Source: Methanocalculus taiwanensis
GTDB taxonomy: Archaea; Halobacteriota; Methanomicrobia; Methanomicrobiales; Methanocorpusculaceae
Assembly (NCBI RefSeq): GCF_024372745.1
Contig: NZ_VOTZ01000003.1
Span: 62,001-126,000, forward strand
DNA: 64,000 nucleotides
Direction: 5' to 3'
The notes beneath the pieces are model-generated. The model was not told where the DNA came from and did not search any database. It saw only the letters and a program-made list of their open reading frames with translations. Made by a program: the position numbers and the translations under genes. Every line of letters begins with the position of its first letter. Position 1 is the stretch's first letter. Shown here in pieces: positions 15,777-38,277 of this stretch.

Positions 15777-15902
15777 TTACTTCCCCTTTTTTGCCGCTGA
15801 GGACGTTGAACGGGATTTAAAGCCCTGATTTGTCCCACTGCGATCTGCTGCCGACTGAATTCGTCTGGCCGCACCAGATGTCATTGGTGACTTCTTGGTC
15901 AT
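15777..15902 (-). CDS. 41-residue SMP/LEA-like small protein
   Basis: The start at 15902 is fixed by AGGAGGT, whose GG lies about seven bases upstream on the minus strand. The longer in-frame extension to 16103 crosses the end of the next gene and is not needed. The product is very polar and has the pattern PMTSGAARRIQSAADRSG followed by GFKSRSTSSAAKK. This matches the short prokaryotic proteins that resemble the seed-maturation (SMP) repeat of LEA proteins. These are presumed disordered, and the role is unknown. It may belong to the same unit as the CARF gene upstream on this strand. Confidence 0.6.
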   Translation of the reverse strand: MTKKSPMTSGAARRIQSAADRSGTNQGFKSRSTSSAAKKGK

Positions 15903-15972: not shown

Positions 15973-16872
15973 CTAATTATCAACATTTGTGATGGGCAGT
16001 GACCGACCTTCTGAGCAAAGTATTGACAATGCGAATATTCCATCCTGCGTAAGACGATATTCTTTCTCTCTTTTATTATTCGGACGCTGGCGTTCTTCAA
16101 CAAGTTCCCACTCTATCAATGGGCTGAGAATCTTTGTGATTGTTCCACGATGCGGAGTTCTCTCTTGTTTTTTATCGTCTTTAAATCTGATCGTTGTGTA
16201 TGTTGATATCATCTCTTTAGCAAAGGCTTTTCCAGGCATCCATTTATTCTTGTTATTTGTATTCATTTTTAGACCCATATAATCTCCAAGAATTACCAGA
16301 GCTTGCACATAATTTGGATTTTTTCTGATATCTCTGAGATACATTTTCGGTATAGAAAAGTGTTTGATACTCTCTTCTTCAGGTGTGAGATATACCTCGC
16401 CATCCAGCCAAATAGCCATGACAAATAGGGAGAGAGAAAGTTGCTTTGTTCCTCCACTCAGGTTAAACGAAAGACGCAAATTTTCGGGATTATAATGGGT
16501 GATTAACTCTAGAATTGCATTCCGAACGGATATTAGGGAAGTATCCTCAATTTTGACCTCAGAGAATGTAACAGCGATGGTTTTACACTGGACTTTGACC
16601 TTGCTGATAGATTCCTGGATTTTTGGCTTTGTTTTTTTAAGATATAAAGAATCATCAATTTTTTCTGAATAGATGTCCTTCTCAACTACAACAGCAACAT
16701 GAGTGATTCGTTCAAGATTCTTTAATGCTGTAGGAAATGTTCCATGAATGCTCTCACCAGCGCTGATAATATGAAGATGCATGATATCATTGAAATATTC
16801 GAGCCCTATCAAATTTAATGTTTCCATTATAGAGAAACAATTTCCAATAATTTGGATATACAAATCACTCAT
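15973..16872 (-). CDS. CARF-domain winged-helix regulator
   Basis: A 299-residue protein. The N-terminal 160 residues form a Rossmann-like CARF domain: first strand LYIQIIG, and the ligand-loop motif FNLSGGTKQLSLSLF at about 136-150, which matches the N-x-(S/T)GGTK signature of CARF proteins. The C-terminal part (about 215-290) is a winged helix ending EYRLTQDGIFAL. This is the Csa3/DUF6293-type architecture, in which cyclic oligoadenylate or a related nucleotide tunes DNA binding. There is no CRISPR array or cas gene in the window. It is divergent from the viperin with only ten bases between the start codons, so it is likely to regulate that gene. Confidence 0.78.
   Translation of the reverse strand: MSDLYIQIIGNCFSIMETLNLIGLEYFNDIMHLHIISAGESIHGTFPTALKNLERITHVAVVVEKDIYSEKIDDSLYLKKTKPKIQESISKVKVQCKTIAVTFSEVKIEDTSLISVRNAILELITHYNPENLRLSFNLSGGTKQLSLSLFVMAIWLDGEVYLTPEEESIKHFSIPKMYLRDIRKNPNYVQALVILGDYMGLKMNTNNKNKWMPGKAFAKEMISTYTTIRFKDDKKQERTPHRGTITKILSPLIEWELVEERQRPNNKREKEYRLTQDGIFALSILCSEGRSLPITNVDN
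16854..16863 (+). promoter_or_regulatory. TATA box for the viperin gene
   Basis: GGATATACAA is centred about 25 bases before the ATG at 16883, which predicts a leaderless viperin transcript. The element lies inside the first codons of the divergent CARF gene, so the two promoters must interfere with each other. Confidence 0.45.
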
Positions 16873-16882
16873 ACCCTATTAT

Positions 16883-17716
16883 ATGGCACAACCATCTGCT
16901 ATTCGGTCAGTGAACTGGCACCTGATTTCTGCATGTAATTACTCATGCAGGTTCTGTTTTGCACAGAATCTTGGTGAAAAACCAGTAAATTATGCTGAGG
17001 GTTGCCGGATTCTAACCAGACTAGCTGATGCTGGCATGGAGAAGATCAATTTTGCAGGGGGTGAACCACTTCTTCATCCCCATCTGTTTGATTACTGCCA
17101 TTTTGCGAAAGACCTCGGAATGACAGTATCTATCACAACGAATGGATCACGGCTGAATGCTAACATGATTCAAAATCAAAGAGACAATATCGACTGGATA
17201 GCTCTTTCAGTCGATTCTGCATCAGAACAAACAGAGAAAAAACTTGGAAGAGGTAATGGAAACCATGTCAGTCATTGTATAGCTATTTCAGATGCTATCA
17301 AGGAACAGGGCATCAAACTGAAGATTAATACCACCGTCACTGCACTTTCATGGAAGGATGATATGACAGATTTTATCCAACGAACGTACCCGGATCGCTG
17401 GAAGGTTCTTCAGATGCTTCATATTCAAGGAGAGAATGATGATGCAGTCGCCGATCTCTCGATAAAAGATGAAGAGTTTCAATTTTTTATCGATAAGCAT
17501 AAATCAATTTTCCTTCATGATGGCCATAAGCCGGTTTTTGAATCTGCTCATATGATCGAAAGCTCATACTTTATGCTCACTCCTTCAGGACATGTAAAAA
17601 CTGATGATGGGCAGATAATTCGGAAGCATTCTTTAGATGATGTCCTCAGTTTTGGAGTTTCTGCATATGTAAATGAACAGCAGTATCTTGGAAGAGGTGG
17701 ACTATATGAGTGGTAA
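16883..17716 (+). CDS. Prokaryotic viperin (radical SAM, makes antiviral ddh-nucleotides)
   Basis: A 277-residue radical SAM enzyme matching viperin along its length. The cluster motif is CNYSCRFC (Cys18, 22, 25). It is followed by AGMEKINFAGGEP, then TTNGS, then KINTTVTALSWKDDMTDFI, then RWKVLQMLHIQGEN, all hallmark segments of human and prokaryotic viperins. The C-terminal RGGLYEW corresponds to the conserved end. Characterised family members dehydrate CTP, UTP or GTP to 3'-deoxy-3',4'-didehydro analogues that terminate viral RNA synthesis. Which nucleotide is used here is not readable. The start at 16883 is preferred over 16781 because of the TATA spacing and because the longer form lacks similarity. 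Confidence 0.9.
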   Translation: MAQPSAIRSVNWHLISACNYSCRFCFAQNLGEKPVNYAEGCRILTRLADAGMEKINFAGGEPLLHPHLFDYCHFAKDLGMTVSITTNGSRLNANMIQNQRDNIDWIALSVDSASEQTEKKLGRGNGNHVSHCIAISDAIKEQGIKLKINTTVTALSWKDDMTDFIQRTYPDRWKVLQMLHIQGENDDAVADLSIKDEEFQFFIDKHKSIFLHDGHKPVFESAHMIESSYFMLTPSGHVKTDDGQIIRKHSLDDVLSFGVSAYVNEQQYLGRGGLYEW

Positions 17717-17772
17717 ATACAAAGAATAAATCAACTATTTTTATCACATAAAAATACTTTATAGGTCTTATT

Positions 17773-18516
17773 ATGCATCCTGGATATGGTTGTCTTTATT
17801 CCTCTCATGTTGCAGAAGTATCAATAATATCATCAAATTCGCATCAATCGACCTTCTGTAGAACAAACGACATAAATAAAAAAAATATTGCAGAAAAAGA
17901 CGAGGTTTTTCAATTAGTTAAAAAAATTAAAAAAATGGGTTACAGAAGAATAATTTTTTCAGGAAGTGATCCTGCGTATCATCCAAACTTACTTGAGTTC
18001 TGTAAAAATGCATGGACGAATAATCTAACTGTTGCCATTGCCACAAATGGATCTATTCTAAATCCTGATATGCTTGAACCATTTGAACAATATATTAGCT
18101 GGCTAATCCTTCCTTTGTATGTGCATTCATATATTAATATAAAAACTAACATATTGTGTGAAAGATCACATATTAATCATCTCATTGCCCTACAGGAAAA
18201 GATGACTGAAACTGAAATCGGATTTCACCTCTATTCACTGATAAACCAATTCAATACTAAAAATCCGATAAGTCCAATCTTACAAAAATTAAACCCAGAT
18301 CTTTTAACTTATATTTTGCATTATCATGGAGAAAAAAGAGAGACAATTAGTGGTAATTATCTATTGTCGAAAAAACAGGTTGAGGTTTTTTCATATCGCA
18401 ATCAGGAAATCCGCCTTTTAAATGGTTTACGACCAACTATATTCTTTTCGGATGAAGTAAACCAATTATATCAGTCATTTTATCCAATTAAATGGAGGGC
18501 ATTAATTGATTCGTAA
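17773..18516 (+). CDS. Viperin-like paralogue that has lost the iron-sulfur cluster motif
   Basis: A 247-residue protein that follows viperin by 56 bases on the same strand. Its core aligns with viperin: YRRIIFSGSDPAYHPNLLEF against MEKINFAGGEPLLHPHLFDY, and IATNGSILNPDML against ITTNGSRLNANMI. The cluster segment CNYSCRFC is replaced by NSHQSTFC, so two of three cysteines are gone and GGEP has become GSDP. It therefore probably cannot bind the 4Fe-4S cluster or cleave SAM. It could be a regulatory subunit or a nucleotide-binding partner of the active enzyme. The second half has no recognisable domain. The reading frame is intact, so it is under selection. Confidence 0.65.
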   Translation: MHPGYGCLYSSHVAEVSIISSNSHQSTFCRTNDINKKNIAEKDEVFQLVKKIKKMGYRRIIFSGSDPAYHPNLLEFCKNAWTNNLTVAIATNGSILNPDMLEPFEQYISWLILPLYVHSYINIKTNILCERSHINHLIALQEKMTETEIGFHLYSLINQFNTKNPISPILQKLNPDLLTYILHYHGEKRETISGNYLLSKKQVEVFSYRNQEIRLLNGLRPTIFFSDEVNQLYQSFYPIKWRALIDS

Positions 18517-18526
18517 TTGACAATAA

Positions 18527-19657
18527 TCATGCGATATCATCAAATTGTAATGAACCATTCTTTTGAAATTCGCTCATTTCTTCGAGAAAAGTTTCCAAAT
18601 ATCGGATTGTCAATTCTGTGTGATGTGCAATTTGTGGGAATAATGTAATTAATGGATTTTCGACAGAATAGAAATCATTTGGATTAAATGATCCCCCATT
18701 TTTTGGATACCTACTAAGGGTTGCATGTCTGGAAATTGGAATTGTCAGGTTTAAAAGACGTATTATAAGAGCTTGATCGAGCATATTCAAAGCTAAACCG
18801 GATAAAAAAACCTCAGGTATTTTTTTTTGAGCTATATATTTCATTTGTTCCTGTTCAAAATCACTCAGATCCTGAAAACCTTGAGTAAAATTATCTATAT
18901 CTGTCAATATTCGATCGTTGTTATCAGGATGTTCAGATGTGCATATTATATTATTGATCATTTCATTTTTTGTATTTTGTATAATAAAATCCTTCATCTT
19001 CTCTGGACTTGAAATTAAGGCGAAATACTGTTTCATAAACTCTTTGAATCCGGGCATTGCATCTTTTGCTGATCTTAAAACAACGTTCCAATCAATAACA
19101 CACTGATCAAGTACAGTCAGATACTCATTTATTTCTTCAATTGACAACGAATATTTCTTTGTCACCTCTTTTTGACGCATTAATTCCAATCGAAAAAACT
19201 CTAAATCTTCGATGGTTTTTCTCAAATTATCTTCATGTCCTGCAAAATAGTATAGATTTTGTTTACTATTTTCAATAAAATAATTGTTGTGTGTATTCCA
19301 ATGTTCAAGAGCCGTTGTATGAATTATATCAAAAATACATGTAAGATCATGGGAAAGTAAGCGGGATGCTTCCTCATCAATATATCCATTGAAAAGTGCA
19401 TATGCTTTTGTTGTTTTTTCAATTGATTGTTGGAGATTAAAAATGGCCTGAGGGTATATCTCAACCAAAAAAACTGCTTGAGCTGCTTTAAGATCATTTG
19501 AGGCTGTCTGAAGGTAATTGTTTACGAGTGGATTATTAGAAAAAGCTGAGTTTTGAACTCTATTTGTATCAAGGTGAAGTTTTTTAAGATATTCTTTAGC
19601 TTTTTGGCAATTGGTTTTCCTTACAAAGAATCCAGTGTTTTTTTTCGAGCGACCCAC
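18527..19657 (-). CDS. Large HEPN-domain protein
   Basis: A 376-residue AT-rich gene convergent with the viperin-like gene, with ten bases between their stops. Residues about 45-120 are HEPN-like: YLQTASNDLKAAQAVFLVEI, then AIFNLQQSIEKTTKAYALF and LLSHDLTCIFD. HEPN domains occur in many antiviral RNases. The catalytic RxxxxH motif is not clear here (SRLLSHD is the nearest, with only three residues between Arg and His), so activity is uncertain. The C-terminal 250 residues are helical and unrecognised. Position next to viperin in the island suggests a defence role, which is inference. Confidence 0.55.
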   Translation of the reverse strand: MGRSKKNTGFFVRKTNCQKAKEYLKKLHLDTNRVQNSAFSNNPLVNNYLQTASNDLKAAQAVFLVEIYPQAIFNLQQSIEKTTKAYALFNGYIDEEASRLLSHDLTCIFDIIHTTALEHWNTHNNYFIENSKQNLYYFAGHEDNLRKTIEDLEFFRLELMRQKEVTKKYSLSIEEINEYLTVLDQCVIDWNVVLRSAKDAMPGFKEFMKQYFALISSPEKMKDFIIQNTKNEMINNIICTSEHPDNNDRILTDIDNFTQGFQDLSDFEQEQMKYIAQKKIPEVFLSGLALNMLDQALIIRLLNLTIPISRHATLSRYPKNGGSFNPNDFYSVENPLITLFPQIAHHTELTIRYLETFLEEMSEFQKNGSLQFDDIA

Positions 19658-19857
19658 TAATTAGTCACCAACCCACAATATAAATAATATCTACCCGCTA
19701 TTACGTTTTTCCTTTTCATGTCATTATTCCTCCCTTGGACACATTTACCCGGTAAATTTCGCAATCGCCTTGATGACTCGATGGATGTGATCACCCTCCC
19801 TTTCGCCGATTCATCCTTCCTGATCAGCCCTTTTGCGAGGCACTCCTCAAATTTCAT
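19657..19857 (-). pseudogene. Truncated HEPN partner of the MNT gene
   Basis: The 66-codon frame begins MKFEECLAKGLIRKDESAKG, the N-terminus of small archaeal HEPN proteins that pair with MNT nucleotidyltransferases. The similarity ends after about 35 residues and no HEPN core helices follow. Its start overlaps the MNT 3' end by four bases as in an intact HEPN-MNT operon. The point where similarity stops is close to where AT-rich island sequence begins, so the gene was probably cut by island insertion or deletion. Confidence 0.6.
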
Positions 19858-20546
19858 AACTCTGCCCCAAAGAGAAGTATGTGGTTTTCAAGAACGCTTT
19901 TTACAAAAGGGTCGCCTTCTTTCTTCTTCCTTTCAAATCTGTGCCAGGGAATGACGGTGAGCTGTATTGGTTTTCCAATTTTCTCCTGAATACTGAGGAT
20001 CTTATCCTTATCCACCTGGTCGGCTTCACCAATGATCAGGATATCCAGATCACTCTTATCATTGAAGGTGCCTGATGCAGCACTCCCGTACAGTGCAACC
20101 GATAGTATATTCGGAGATCCCGGAAAGCCCTTGTGACCTGATACTGCATAGGTGGATTCAGCAGTCTCTGCTACAACATTTGTTTCTTTTCTTCCGGTGG
20201 TCTCTTCAGACATCTCCCCGGTACGATCTATACTATCCTCGGTACGATCTGTTCTATCTCTGGCTATCTCTTCGATACCGTATTCAATCAGCATAAAGAG
20301 TATGGCACACTTTTTCAATTCCTTTACAACTGGCTTTTCGTTCCTGAGGATGATCTGGTGGGCGGTTCCGATTTTCTCTATGGTTACAATCCCGGCCTTC
20401 TGGAATACATTGGCATATCGCAATACTGTTGATGGAGAGATGCCCAGTTCCCGGGCCAGCTCATTGATATGAAACCTGGAATCAGGATTCATCAGAAGCC
20501 ATTGGAGGATTTTGTTACCGGCAAAGGTATTGAACTCAGGAATCAT
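19854..20546 (-). CDS. wHTH-MNT nucleotidyltransferase (antitoxin-like)
   Basis: A 230-residue protein with an N-terminal winged helix (HINELARELGISPSTVLRYANVF, about 26-48, shown in parts) and a C-terminal minimal nucleotidyltransferase. The GSx10DxD motif is present at Gly154-Asp168 (LYGSAASGTF, then SDLDILII). In HEPN-MNT modules the MNT protein AMPylates or restrains the HEPN toxin. The two domains are separated by about 45 residues of Thr/Glu/Arg-rich low-complexity sequence (about 96-140), unusual for the family. Its HEPN partner downstream is truncated, so this antitoxin may be orphaned. Confidence 0.75.
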   Translation of the reverse strand: MIPEFNTFAGNKILQWLLMNPDSRFHINELARELGISPSTVLRYANVFQKAGIVTIEKIGTAHQIILRNEKPVVKELKKCAILFMLIEYGIEEIARDRTDRTEDSIDRTGEMSEETTGRKETNVVAETAESTYAVSGHKGFPGSPNILSVALYGSAASGTFNDKSDLDILIIGEADQVDKDKILSIQEKIGKPIQLTVIPWHRFERKKKEGDPFVKSVLENHILLFGAEL

Positions 20547-20748
20547 TCGATAGAGAGAATTATCGTTCTATGTATAAAATGGTTGTTCTATGGGTTGGAT
20601 GGTAGGTTAGTTTGATGGAGTTGTCTGCCTACAGAAAGAAAGGTATGTTATCTTAATCTATAATTGGAAAGTAAGGTAAATACTCCGACATATTTCAAAA
20701 TATTTTGATATAGATAACTATAAGTTACATAATCTCTTAAGGATTTAT

Positions 20749-22491
20749 ATGGCTAATATATTTCCTTCTGAAGCTGCATATCGAGAGAACCATGATCTAA
20801 TTCGCAATTATACTAATAATTCCCGTCTATTATTTGCATTGCAAATAAAATATCAAATAGAGGATATTGACTCAGTAGCTGCTGAATGTTTAACAGATGG
20901 ACCTGATGATAGGAAATGCGATATGGTATATATTAATATAGAAAATAAAACGGCAATAATCGCACAATCCTATGAAGGTCAGAATTATGGCTCTCATAGT
21001 GCACCTGGAAATAAAGCCACTGATTTGAATGGTGCAGTTTCTTGGATATTATCTTCAAATGAAGCCGAATTGCCAGAACGATTAATCCCGGCAACTAGAA
21101 GCTTAAAAACTGCTATTATAAATAATCATATTAAATATTTTTACATATGGTATGTACATAATTGTAATGAATCAGATCAAATAAAATCCGAGTTAAAGAA
21201 TGTTGAGAGAACCGCAAAATCTCTTTTAGATCAATATTTTTTAGAAAACGATGTTCAGGTTATTTCATTAGAGATTGGCATTAATACTCTTGAAGAATGG
21301 TATCATGCACTAAATACACCCATTCTAGTTAATGACAATCTATTAATTGATATTAAGGGTGGTTATGAAATTAATACAGAATCTTGGAAAAGTTATATCA
21401 CAGCTATTCCTGCTAAAATTCTATTTGAATTATATCAAAAACATAAAACGGATTTATTTTCAGCGAACATTCGGGATTATTTAGGCAGCAGAAATAGTGA
21501 TAAAAATATAAATAGCAATATTAAATTTACGGCAATTTCTGATCCCGAAAATTTTTTTATTTATAATAATGGAATTACTGCACTTGTGAATAATTATACA
21601 ATTTTATCCAATCATCAGATGCAGATATCCGGTGTGTCAATCTTAAACGGAGCACAAACCTCTGGATCAATAGGATCATTGGATACTTCCCCAGATGCGA
21701 ATGTATTAGTTCCAACTCGTTTTGTTCATTGTACAAATCAAGACATTTTGATGAAAATTATTGAATATAATAATACTCAAAATAAAATTAAACCATCTGA
21801 TTTTCGTAGCCATGATAGGATCCAAAAAAGGTTACGCGATGAATTTAAAGAAATTCCTAATACTGAATATAATGGTGGAAGGAGAGGTAGCTCGCAAGAT
21901 ATCATTCGAAGGCCTACAAATTTAATGCCATCTGATGCAGTGGCTCAATCATTAGCCTCCTTTCATGGAAATCCAACTGATGCTTATAATAAAAAATCTG
22001 CATTATGGGAAGATGATCTGAAATATAATGAGATATTTAATGACTCTACTAGTGCGAAACATATAGTGTTTGTTTATTCATTATTACGTTCAATTGAGAA
22101 ATTTAAGTCATTATTAAAACAAAATGATCAGACAATAGGATTAAAGGAAATTGAAAAAGAAGAATTAAAATTCCTCCGAGAGCGTGGGTCAATACTCCTC
22201 CTTTTAGGAGCAATTGCCAGCAGTATTGAGGTTATTGTTGATAGACCTGTACCGAATAAATTTGCTCTGTCATTTAGTAGTGGCGTTTCTTATATAGATG
22301 GAATTAATTATTGGATGCCAATAGTTGAAGCAACGATACCTTATTGCGATGCGTTAAAACCGGCTGCAATTAGTAGCATTCAAAATAAGGATAAAGTTAA
22401 TGATGCAATGAAATTATTTAGTAGACATGTTGCCTCCACAAAAGCTCAGAATCAAAAAATATTCTCATATTTCTCGACGAATATTGAATAG
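20749..22491 (+). CDS. AIPR family abortive phage-infection protein
   Basis: A 580-residue protein with the AIPR core: NIRDYLGSR (240-248), ENFFIYNNGITAL (267-279) and SILNGAQTSGSI (297-308) in order. The N-terminal segment DDRKCDMVYI...TAIIAQ (53-73) looks like the nuclease-like region seen before AIPR cores, but the usual Q-x-K is Q-S-Y here, so a catalytic lysine is not obvious. AIPR proteins were named for abortive infection phage resistance; their molecular target is not established. The gene is AT-rich, with AAGGA about six bases before the ATG, and sits alone at the right end of the island. Confidence 0.75.
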   Translation: MANIFPSEAAYRENHDLIRNYTNNSRLLFALQIKYQIEDIDSVAAECLTDGPDDRKCDMVYINIENKTAIIAQSYEGQNYGSHSAPGNKATDLNGAVSWILSSNEAELPERLIPATRSLKTAIINNHIKYFYIWYVHNCNESDQIKSELKNVERTAKSLLDQYFLENDVQVISLEIGINTLEEWYHALNTPILVNDNLLIDIKGGYEINTESWKSYITAIPAKILFELYQKHKTDLFSANIRDYLGSRNSDKNINSNIKFTAISDPENFFIYNNGITALVNNYTILSNHQMQISGVSILNGAQTSGSIGSLDTSPDANVLVPTRFVHCTNQDILMKIIEYNNTQNKIKPSDFRSHDRIQKRLRDEFKEIPNTEYNGGRRGSSQDIIRRPTNLMPSDAVAQSLASFHGNPTDAYNKKSALWEDDLKYNEIFNDSTSAKHIVFVYSLLRSIEKFKSLLKQNDQTIGLKEIEKEELKFLRERGSILLLLGAIASSIEVIVDRPVPNKFALSFSSGVSYIDGINYWMPIVEATIPYCDALKPAAISSIQNKDKVNDAMKLFSRHVASTKAQNQKIFSYFSTNIE

Positions 22492-22599
22492 TAATAATTA
22501 TTAAACATCATTTATTGAAGGTCTTTATAATGAAAAACATTGAATTATCAACGTCGGTCTAGAAATCCCCACTTTCGTATCCTCCCACTCCCCCCCCAA

Positions 22600-22610
22600 T
22601 TCACTTTCAC
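22600..22610 (-). promoter_or_regulatory. GTGAAAGTGAA box upstream of Orc1/Cdc6 gene A
   Basis: An 11-base motif on the minus strand, about 45 bases before the Orc1/Cdc6 start at 22656 and followed by a G run. Identical 11-mers are found upstream of the second Orc1/Cdc6 gene (58890) and of the YdjM gene (59920). Confidence 0.45.
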
Positions 22611-22655
22611 CATGCACGGTTCACCTCTTATTACTCCGACCGCGTTCTTTATGGT

Positions 22656-24122
22656 ATGAATTCAGAAAGTAGTTCGCAGATTGTCTCACGTAACTTCACT
22701 TTTTCCGATAAGCCGCTCTTTCGGGACGCCGATATCCTCGAGTGCGATCACGTTCCCGACCAGGTTCTCTTCCGCGATGCCGAGCTCAAGGAGCTGGCAT
22801 TCCTGATCAAACCGGGGCTCCGGGGCCAGCGGCCAGCCAACATCCTCTGCCGGGGGCTCCCCGCCACCGGGAAGACGACCTGTATCCAGCACCTCTTTGG
22901 CGAGATCCGGGATGTCTCAAATACCCTGATCCCGGTGTACGTGAACTGCCAGCAGAACAGATCAGCATTTGCTGTCTTCTCAACAATCTACCGGGAACTG
23001 GTCGGCCATGCTCCGCCCAGCTCCGGCATTCCGCTCCGGCGGCTGATGGATGCCGTCGCAAAGGCGCTTCAATCACGGAGAGAATCCGAGAGAACCGTCC
23101 TCCTGGTCTGCCTCGACGATATCCACCACCTGATTCATGAGGGAACCGATACCCAGATCCTCTCCTCACTTCTCAGGATCTATCTCGACTATCCCGGCTG
23201 CCGTGCTTCAGTTATTCTGGTCGAGAGCGATCTCGCACTCGATATCTCCCGCAGGCTGGATCGATCCGTTTTCTCCAGCCTCTGCATGGAAGAGGTCTTC
23301 TTTGCCCCCTATTCCGCCGCCCAGATCCGGGGCATCCTGCAGGAGAGAGCACGGCAGGCGGTCTATCCGTCAGTGATCTCCCCTGAGATCCTTGATCTCG
23401 TCACTGACATGACGGCATCAACAGTGACCGGCGATCTCAGGGTCGGGATCGATCTCCTGAAACGTTCCATTCTCAGGGCAGAGCGGGCGGGGCGGCCTGC
23501 TGTCACCGACGAGGATGTTGCCGCCGCCTACGGGGATGCCCGCCTCACCCACCTCCGGGGCCTCGTCTCGGTCCTCACTGAAAAAGAGCGGAGGCTCCTC
23601 TCGGTGATTGCCGGTATGGTAGAGGAGGGAGAAGAGGCTCGTGAGAAGGAGTATAGCAGGAAGGAGTATGGCGGGAAGGAGTATGGCGAGTGCGGGGAGC
23701 CGGTGCCCCCGACCTCAGGAAGGCTCTATTCCCGGCTCCTGGAGGTGATGGCAGCCGAGCAATCGGAAAAGCAGCAGCGAGCCATGGAGCAGCGAGCCGG
23801 GGGACAGCAAACCCGCGAACCGCAAGCCATGGAGCAGGGAGCCGGAGATCTGCGATCAGGGGATCAGCGACCAGTGGAACCGGCGGTATGTGCCGAGCCC
23901 GAGCCGGGATATGGGCGTGACAAAAGCCCTGAAGGAAAGGATGGCCGAAGGCAGGATCAGGTGCCAACCATCTCCTATACCTCCTTCCACGAGCAGCTCA
24001 GGTCGCTTGCCACCTATGCCCTCATCAGGATCTCGGTCCGGCAGGCGAAGGGGCGGACGAGCGAGATCACGCTCCGGTACCCGGCAGCTGATGTGAAGAG
24101 GATCTGTGAGGGGGTAGAATGA
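22656..24122 (+). CDS. Orc1/Cdc6-type AAA+ replication initiator paralogue
   Basis: A 488-residue AAA+ ATPase of the archaeal Orc1/Cdc6 family. Walker A GLPATGKTT lies at 67-75 and Walker B LLVCLDDIHHL at 149-159. A lid domain follows, and the winged helix ends RISVRQAKGRTSEITLRY. It is clearly paralogous to the protein at 57708-58868. The winged helix is split by an insertion of about 90 residues (about 325-425), rich in Glu, Arg and Gln with MEQ repeats, that the paralogue lacks. The protein may bind an origin or act as a specialised regulator. No origin repeats were identified beside it with confidence. Confidence 0.8.
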   Translation: MNSESSSQIVSRNFTFSDKPLFRDADILECDHVPDQVLFRDAELKELAFLIKPGLRGQRPANILCRGLPATGKTTCIQHLFGEIRDVSNTLIPVYVNCQQNRSAFAVFSTIYRELVGHAPPSSGIPLRRLMDAVAKALQSRRESERTVLLVCLDDIHHLIHEGTDTQILSSLLRIYLDYPGCRASVILVESDLALDISRRLDRSVFSSLCMEEVFFAPYSAAQIRGILQERARQAVYPSVISPEILDLVTDMTASTVTGDLRVGIDLLKRSILRAERAGRPAVTDEDVAAAYGDARLTHLRGLVSVLTEKERRLLSVIAGMVEEGEEAREKEYSRKEYGGKEYGECGEPVPPTSGRLYSRLLEVMAAEQSEKQQRAMEQRAGGQQTREPQAMEQGAGDLRSGDQRPVEPAVCAEPEPGYGRDKSPEGKDGRRQDQVPTISYTSFHEQLRSLATYALIRISVRQAKGRTSEITLRYPAADVKRICEGVE

Positions 24123-33015: not shown

Positions 33016-33692
33016 CCGAAACAGAATCCATCGAGTACAAACAGTCCTGGCGGGACGAATATCTCAAATGGATCTGTGGGTTTGCCAATGCACAGGGTGG
33101 CAGGCTCGATATTGAAATGGATGATTCCGGTCTCTGGGTGGAGTTTCCATATAGATTGGAAGAGAGATCGGCGGGTACTAGGGAAGAAACTAGGGTGATA
33201 GCTAGGGAAGAAACTGGAGAGAGGATCACCACTTTTAACCTGACGCGGTATATCGAACGAATGGGAACCGGGACAAGGGACATGATCAGGCGGTGTGTGG
33301 ATGCCGGGTTGCCAGAGCCTGAATTTGAGGTCACTGACGGGTTCATGACCACCATCAGGCGTAGTAAAACAGATGAAATCATTCCCCCGAAGAAGGCAGA
33401 TCAAGTCACAGGTGAAGTCACAGGTGAAGTCACAGGTGAAGTCACAGGTGAAGTCACAGGTGAAGTCAGATCACTATTGGCAGTGATGAAGCAGGAATTA
33501 TCACGCTCTGAACTCCAGAAAAATCTTGGATTAAAAAGTGAAGCAAATTTCCGCACATTGTATCTCAAACCTGCAACGGATGCTGGTCTCGTTGAGATGA
33601 CAATCCCGGAGAAACCCACAAGCCGGCTGCAAAAATACCGCCTGACAAAGAAGGGCCGTGATCTGCTGGCCGCAATGAGGAAGGAGGAATGA
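33012..33692 (+). CDS. Internally deleted AlbA_2/ATPase family protein
   Basis: A 226-residue protein. The first 30 residues (ESIEYKQSWRDEYLKWICGF) are the start of an AlbA_2 domain. The segment IERMGTGTRDMIRRC with GLPEPEFEV is the end of the linked GHKL ATPase domain, and the last 75 residues form a winged helix. The 200-300 residues that normally lie between are missing and replaced by about 20 residues of TREETRVIAREET type. Five VTGE repeats follow. It is probably a remnant that still has an open frame, and ATPase function is lost. It starts on the ancestral hsdS stop. Confidence 0.65.
   Translation: MTETESIEYKQSWRDEYLKWICGFANAQGGRLDIEMDDSGLWVEFPYRLEERSAGTREETRVIAREETGERITTFNLTRYIERMGTGTRDMIRRCVDAGLPEPEFEVTDGFMTTIRRSKTDEIIPPKKADQVTGEVTGEVTGEVTGEVTGEVRSLLAVMKQELSRSELQKNLGLKSEANFRTLYLKPATDAGLVEMTIPEKPTSRLQKYRLTKKGRDLLAAMRKEE
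33404..33470 (+). repeat. 12-bp tandem repeat encoding VTGE
   Basis: Five copies of GTCACAGGTGAA in frame. Six similar copies, some degenerate, are at 38099-38164 in a relic of the same gene. Confidence 0.9.
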
Positions 33693-38063: not shown

Positions 38064-38277
38064 AAGATGATGGAATCATTCCATCGAAGAAGTCAGATGA
38101 AGTCACAGGTGAAGTCACAGGTGAAGTGACAGGTGAAGTTACAGGTGTAGTCACAGGTGAAGTCAAACGATACTCTCGCTTGTATATGGTCGCTCTGAGA
38201 AAAGGAGATAATCCGACAGGATCGATAGATTCCAAGAGTCTCCGATATATGTCACTTTGGATGGGTTGCCAGTATTC
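38064..38277 (+). pseudogene. Relic of the VTGE-repeat ATPase-family gene
   Basis: The plus-strand frame reads DGIIPSKKSDEVTGEVTGEV, matching DEIIPPKKADQVTGEV of the gene at 33012-33692. Six VTGE-like repeats follow at 38099-38164 and then unrelated sequence to a stop. No upstream AlbA or ATPase part is present. Confidence 0.65.

Follow-up and report, generated by a model that had tools for sequence, protein, structure and literature searches.

The locus studied here raises two questions: how an archaeal viperin is switched on, and why a second viperin-like gene with a degraded cluster motif is kept beside it. It lies in a 64-kb stretch of DNA of a methanogenic archaeon; this stretch is called the window below. 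With moderate confidence, we read the locus as a CARF-regulated viperin defence cassette with a pseudoenzyme second viperin, which most likely acts as a modulating partner.

Layout of the locus and its viperin gene

An earlier note on this DNA had described a CARF-winged-helix gene, a full viperin gene and a cluster-less paralogue with an open frame, and motif and profile searches found all three in the places and on the strands given in Table 1. The paralogue begins 56 bp past the viperin stop, and its NxxxSxxC, GSDP and intact frame were likewise confirmed. The ten bases that were said to separate the CARF and viperin starts had to be corrected to about 100 bp. Residues 1-30 of the CARF frame are missing from the homologues, which begin at Met31, and the AF2 model places these residues with low confidence; therefore, Met31 (16782) is more likely the start.

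Table 1. Features of the viperin locus and of the DNA that follows it
Feature	Position	Strand	Basis or remark
41-aa SMP-like small protein gene	15777-15902	(-)	70-75 bp past CARF stop, same strand as CARF
CARF-wHTH ORF	15973-16872	(-)	full ORF; proposed start at Met31 shortens the gene
CARF-winged-helix regulator, 269 aa from Met31	15973-16782	(-)	PDLC02909, Foldseek, homologue starts
CARF/viperin shared intergenic region, ~100 bp	16783-16882		between divergent starts
Inverted repeat GTTTC-N9-GAAAC, candidate CARF operator	16820-16838	.	centred 54 bp upstream of viperin start
Canonical prokaryotic viperin (pVip)	16883-17716	(+)	CxxxCxxC, GGEP, RGGxYxW; NF038283, PADLOC pVip
Cluster-less viperin paralogue (putative pseudoviperin), C-terminally shortened	17773-18516	(+)	weak pVip/NF038283 matches, predicted fold
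HEPN protein	18527-19657		defence-like island
PDC-M05A-like HTH nucleotidyltransferase	19854-20546		defence-like island
AIPR/AbiU-like protein	20749-22491		defence-like island
Orc1/Cdc6	22656-24122		defence-like island
Type I restriction methylase	from 25301		defence-like island

By its motifs, its NF038283 equivalog score and its PADLOC pVip match, the first of the two viperin-like genes is a canonical prokaryotic viperin. All viperin hallmarks are present (CNYSCRFC for CxxxCxxC, GGEP, and RGGLYEW), the score of 265.9 bits on NF038283 is above the cut-off of 180, the PADLOC pVip match has an E value of 6.7e-77, and comparison with solved viperin structures gave E values down to 5e-42. For prokaryotic viperins (pVips), the reference is Bernheim et al. 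(2021), cited as ref. 64 in PMC12988326. Set against them, this gene is a canonical member whereas the paralogue fails both the family cut-off and the motif, and the window viperin is additionally coupled to a CARF regulator, a 41-residue small protein and the cluster-less paralogue.

The CARF regulator and the shared spacer

The CARF gene matched the PADLOC Csa3 model PDLC02909 in the profile search (E 5.4e-80), and its AF2 model (pLDDT 88) was matched by Foldseek to the Csa3-cA4 structures 6w11 and 6wxq and to the apo structure 2wte. Taken together, these comparisons found both a CARF domain, which carries an SGGTK-type motif, and a winged helix. The product has the domain order and fold of the dimeric DNA-binding regulators represented by Sulfolobus Csa3 and by MM_0565, a Csa3-type CARF-winged-helix regulator (PMC7465815). 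Those regulators adjoin CRISPR loci, whereas the window CARF gene adjoins viperin and belongs to a set of genomes that mostly lack Cas10; unlike the CRISPR-associated Csa3 family, it also falls below the cut-off of NCBIfam TIGR01884 (24 against 60.2 bits).

The pairing of this regulator with viperin is widespread. Among 42 viperin loci retrieved from the order, phylum and family f8 samples, a CARF gene adjoins viperin in 33, divergently in 31 and in the same direction in 2, and the relatives include Methanoculleus, Methanofollis, Methanocorpusculum, Methanolobus, Methanosarcina and Methanoperedens. The best 17 PDLC02909 matches in the order were all viperin-adjacent, bar one at a contig edge, so that the best matches of this model are the same viperin-adjacent CARF-winged-helix genes. 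Lower-scoring homologues of genus g34 were considered as viperin partners and set aside, as they do not stand beside viperin in the loci read. In the g34 genomes (L124-L135), as many as six matches to this CARF-winged-helix family lie apart from viperin; the neighbour of several of them is a membrane pyrophosphatase gene or one for a response-regulator-type protein. Two contigs labelled Acholeplasmataceae and Bacteroidales (L140, L141) hold a Methanocorpusculum-type CARF-viperin locus and are probably mis-binned. One viperin gene (L216, 5959-6810) shares an IMG/VR contig with virus genes that resemble those for portal and protease proteins, which points to a virus- or provirus-borne viperin.

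The earlier note knew of no described system with this trio. The CARF-viperin pair within it is not unique. In PADLOC-DB, PDLC02909 ('Csa3') is numbered alongside PDLC02907 (TPR) and PDLC02908 (Ankyrin) and lies near pVip and pVip-kinase; hence, the database seems to group Csa3 with genes that accompany viperin, and the association appears to be catalogued already. The literature searched yielded no text on the function, operator or ligand of the pair or on a second viperin. The pair is known; what appears undescribed is the degenerate second viperin, together with the 41-residue protein linked to the locus.

The spacer between the two divergent genes carries an inverted repeat. GTTTC-N8/9-GAAAC was found in 8 spacers; in each, it begins 65-67 bp before the viperin start and is followed by a conserved TTTC, with diverged flanks. 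Other CARF-viperin spacers contain related half-forms, Methanolobus-type spacers have a different AT-rich palindrome, and more than half of the CARF loci lack the motif or have it in altered form. Within the window, the repeat occurs once, against 0.13 expected. Genome-wide, the bare pattern was found in 10 places against 4 for the reversed control, and the argument consequently rests on position and conservation, not on the bare pattern. We suggest that the repeat is likely the CARF operator; it would be the kind of site used by an autoregulating dimer. Since the pair is conserved and mostly divergent and the spacer holds a conserved inverted repeat, viperin is very probably under the control of the CARF protein, a reading well supported by the anatomy of the locus.

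The gene for the 41-residue protein is the sole genomic match to this small protein in the window genome. Across 31 genomes, there were 24 genomic matches, and 16 of the 24 lie at most 250 bp from a CARF or viperin gene; six same-genus relatives that have no viperin or CARF match had no small-protein match. Across species, the small protein evolves under purifying selection (dN/dS 0.08-0.36), and in one genome (G095), its gene shares the reading frame of CARF, with no stop between them. No Pfam family was matched. It also adjoins viperins in Lokiarchaeota and Thermococcus MAGs; this uncharacterised component accompanies viperin in methanogens, in Thermococcus and in an Asgard archaeon.

The second viperin-like gene

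The paralogue has 247 codons without an internal stop. It reads SSNSHQSTFC where viperins have CxxxCxxC, so that the set of three cluster cysteines is not kept, and it scored 67 bits on PADLOC pVip and 52.3 on NF038283, the latter below the cut-off given above. Of 56 residues that are invariant among 23 viperins of the order, 16 are kept and 40 lost, the lost ones including the cluster ligands C18 and C22, the GE of GGEP, SVDS, GRG, KxNT, RWK and the C-terminal RGGxYxW. Some of the lost residues would, going by viperin structures, contact SAM or the NTP. Judged by this alignment, the paralogue has lost conserved residues of the putative SAM/NTP pocket. The earlier idea that it binds nucleotide or SAM is therefore unlikely, because the conserved active-site residues have been replaced.

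A viperin-type barrel is nonetheless predicted. The AF2 model (pLDDT 81, pTM 0.82) came from an input alignment made of viperins, which favours the viperin fold; in the same light must be read its nearest fold matches, which are viperins, the best being mouse viperin 5vsl (TM 0.73, E 7e-14).

It might be argued that the paralogue is a relic, a functionless tandem duplicate that is open by chance or lost its function only recently. Its catalytic residues are gone, it is AT-rich, and neither the 232 genomes of the order nor the phylum sample yielded an orthologue; the genome contigs and viral contigs likewise gave no close relative, and the matches obtained in the order and contig searches proved to be either ordinary viperins or radical SAM proteins of another kind. 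Selection on the paralogue could thus be gauged only indirectly, as the scanned collections hold no close relative. In 300 simulated runs, viperin was left to drift neutrally to 20-31% identity over 206 codons. The expectation was 9-11 stops, and none of the 300 runs was free of stops. With about 9 stops expected and none observed, this simulation indicates that the frame is kept by selection through most of its divergence. The scarcity of indels when the paralogue is aligned with viperin and the recurrence of the same gene order in other loci also speak against a relic, which we regard as unlikely, although it is the weightiest of the rival explanations; constraint may still have been lost recently, after a long functional life.

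The gene order CARF, viperin and second viperin-like gene, the last on the viperin strand, was found in six other loci (L073, L078, L082, L115, L117 and L118), all of them CARF-linked and all from family f8 (Methanosarcinaceae; Methanolobus/Methanosarcina-type). The copy in L117 (L117_2) still resembles a full viperin; five of the six have lost the C-terminal RGGxYxW and several invariant residues and have kept CxxxCxxC. The window paralogue shares their place and strand but not this motif, and the cluster-keeping copies may do something different from it; among the degenerate second copies, it is the extreme case. On the neighbours of its homologues, the result was mixed: the scans gave no close homologue, but these more distant second copies do adjoin CARF and viperin genes. 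Where it could be measured, the second copies are under purifying selection (omega 0.35 for L118/L082 and 0.17 for L117/L082). Second viperin-like genes occur in 7 of 33 CARF-linked loci against 0 of 9 others, which is not significant (Fisher p 0.16, phylum sample alone), and no tandem viperin copy was found in about 55 more distant CARF-less loci. Second matches in L155 and L160 turned out to be unrelated radical SAM genes. In the maximum-likelihood tree, the second copies fall into three groups; several independent origins were not accepted, as a single origin was not rejected (AU p 0.32 and 0.35). The Methanolobus second copies (L118 6344-7081, L115 7841-8587, L082 8277-9089) look mosaic, and L118_2 joins a type A N-terminus to a type B body.

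Next in weight is a decoy or guard: by imitating viperin, the paralogue would draw off a viral anti-viperin protein, and its rapid divergence would stem from an arms race. The very long branch of the paralogue (9.1 changes per site) and the variable, mosaic make-up of related second copies such as L118_2 would suit it. An identity of 18-26% to viperins is poor mimicry, however, and we know of no viral anti-viperin factor in archaea, which leaves this explanation doubtful.

The signal and the working of the cassette

Cas10 was found in 5 of 37 viperin-bearing genomes; all 5 are among the 30 CARF-linked genomes, 25 of which lack it. An mCpol match above the cut-off was found in 1 genome and SMODS matches above it in 5, the window genome belonging to neither group. 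SMODS matches in 25 genomes were rejected as CD-NTases; they were weak and mostly below cut-off, and from the length of their frames (mostly about 460 residues), they look like CCA-adding enzymes. The window genome, which is 99.86% complete, has no Cas10 (PF22335), mCpol or SMODS match, and no CRISPR array was found in the 64-kb window.

These findings bear on the view that the CARF protein, by sensing cyclic oligoadenylate of CRISPR origin, links viperin to type III CRISPR. The SGGTK-type motif, the cA4-bound Csa3 structures among the nearest fold matches and the Cas10 genes in 5 of the 30 CARF-linked genomes are consistent with it. A CRISPR-made ligand is nevertheless unsupported, because Cas10 is missing from 25 of the 30 and no synthase match exists in the window genome, and we consider such coupling improbable, third among the rivals. 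The earlier proposal that a nucleotide signal acts through CARF on viperin was accordingly upheld in one part only: the conserved pair and the shared spacer with its repeat favour control of viperin, while the lack of any Cas10, mCpol or SMODS match argues against CRISPR-type cyclic oligoadenylate as the signal. The CARF ligand, if there is one, is likely not CRISPR-made; since Cas10 is absent from most such genomes, and mCpol and SMODS matches too are missing from the window genome, it may be a hitherto unrecognised signal. The last rival, a new enzyme that keeps the barrel and uses no cluster, accords with the predicted fold and the conserved open frame but is very improbable, given that no set of viperin pocket residues is kept, no other catalytic motif was seen and the C-terminal part is shortened.

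The cassette with a modulating partner, which we favour, starts from features read in the DNA, namely the gene identities, the conserved linkage, the repeat, the residue losses and the open frame. The regulation, ligand binding, viperin activity and partner role that we infer would combine as follows. The CARF-winged-helix protein would bind the inverted repeat, which lies in the promoter region common to both directions, and would control viperin as well as its own operon, made up of CARF and the 41-residue protein. A nucleotide ligand on the CARF domain would alter DNA binding; its maker here would not be a recognised cyclic-oligonucleotide synthase. Viperin would then produce a 3'-deoxy-3',4'-didehydro nucleotide, halting viral RNA synthesis. 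The downstream gene would be a tandem viperin duplicate turned pseudoenzyme by loss of the iron-sulphur ligands and conserved active-site residues, and it would be kept for a non-catalytic role. Most likely, it binds and modulates the active viperin in the manner of a prozyme; service as a decoy for viral anti-viperin factors is the less likely role.

Pseudo-radical-SAM partners and prozymes, such as the pseudo-SAM/SPASM proteins of NCBIfam TIGR04347 and the prozymes of trypanosomes, resemble the window pair in that a cluster-less or dead paralogue is kept beside an active enzyme; they are other families. To our knowledge, the putative pseudoviperin would be the first viperin pseudoenzyme described, and its place beside an active viperin would show that viperins, too, have evolved dead regulatory partners. 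More generally, and tentatively, some archaeal viperins could be two-component, with an active and a degenerate controlling viperin, a CARF protein sensing a non-CRISPR nucleotide signal and a dedicated 41-residue protein. If this is true, orphan CARF-viperin loci would be a sign that methanogens use a nucleotide second messenger yet to be discovered. The conserved CARF regulator and the candidate operator make the switching-on of viperin in prokaryotes testable.

The surroundings of the locus are also of note. Its neighbours at 18527-24122 form a defence-like island (Table 1). Farther along the window, two 12-base tandem repeat arrays (CAGGTGAAGTCA) were observed at 33385-33480 and 38082-38177, 4.6 kb apart.
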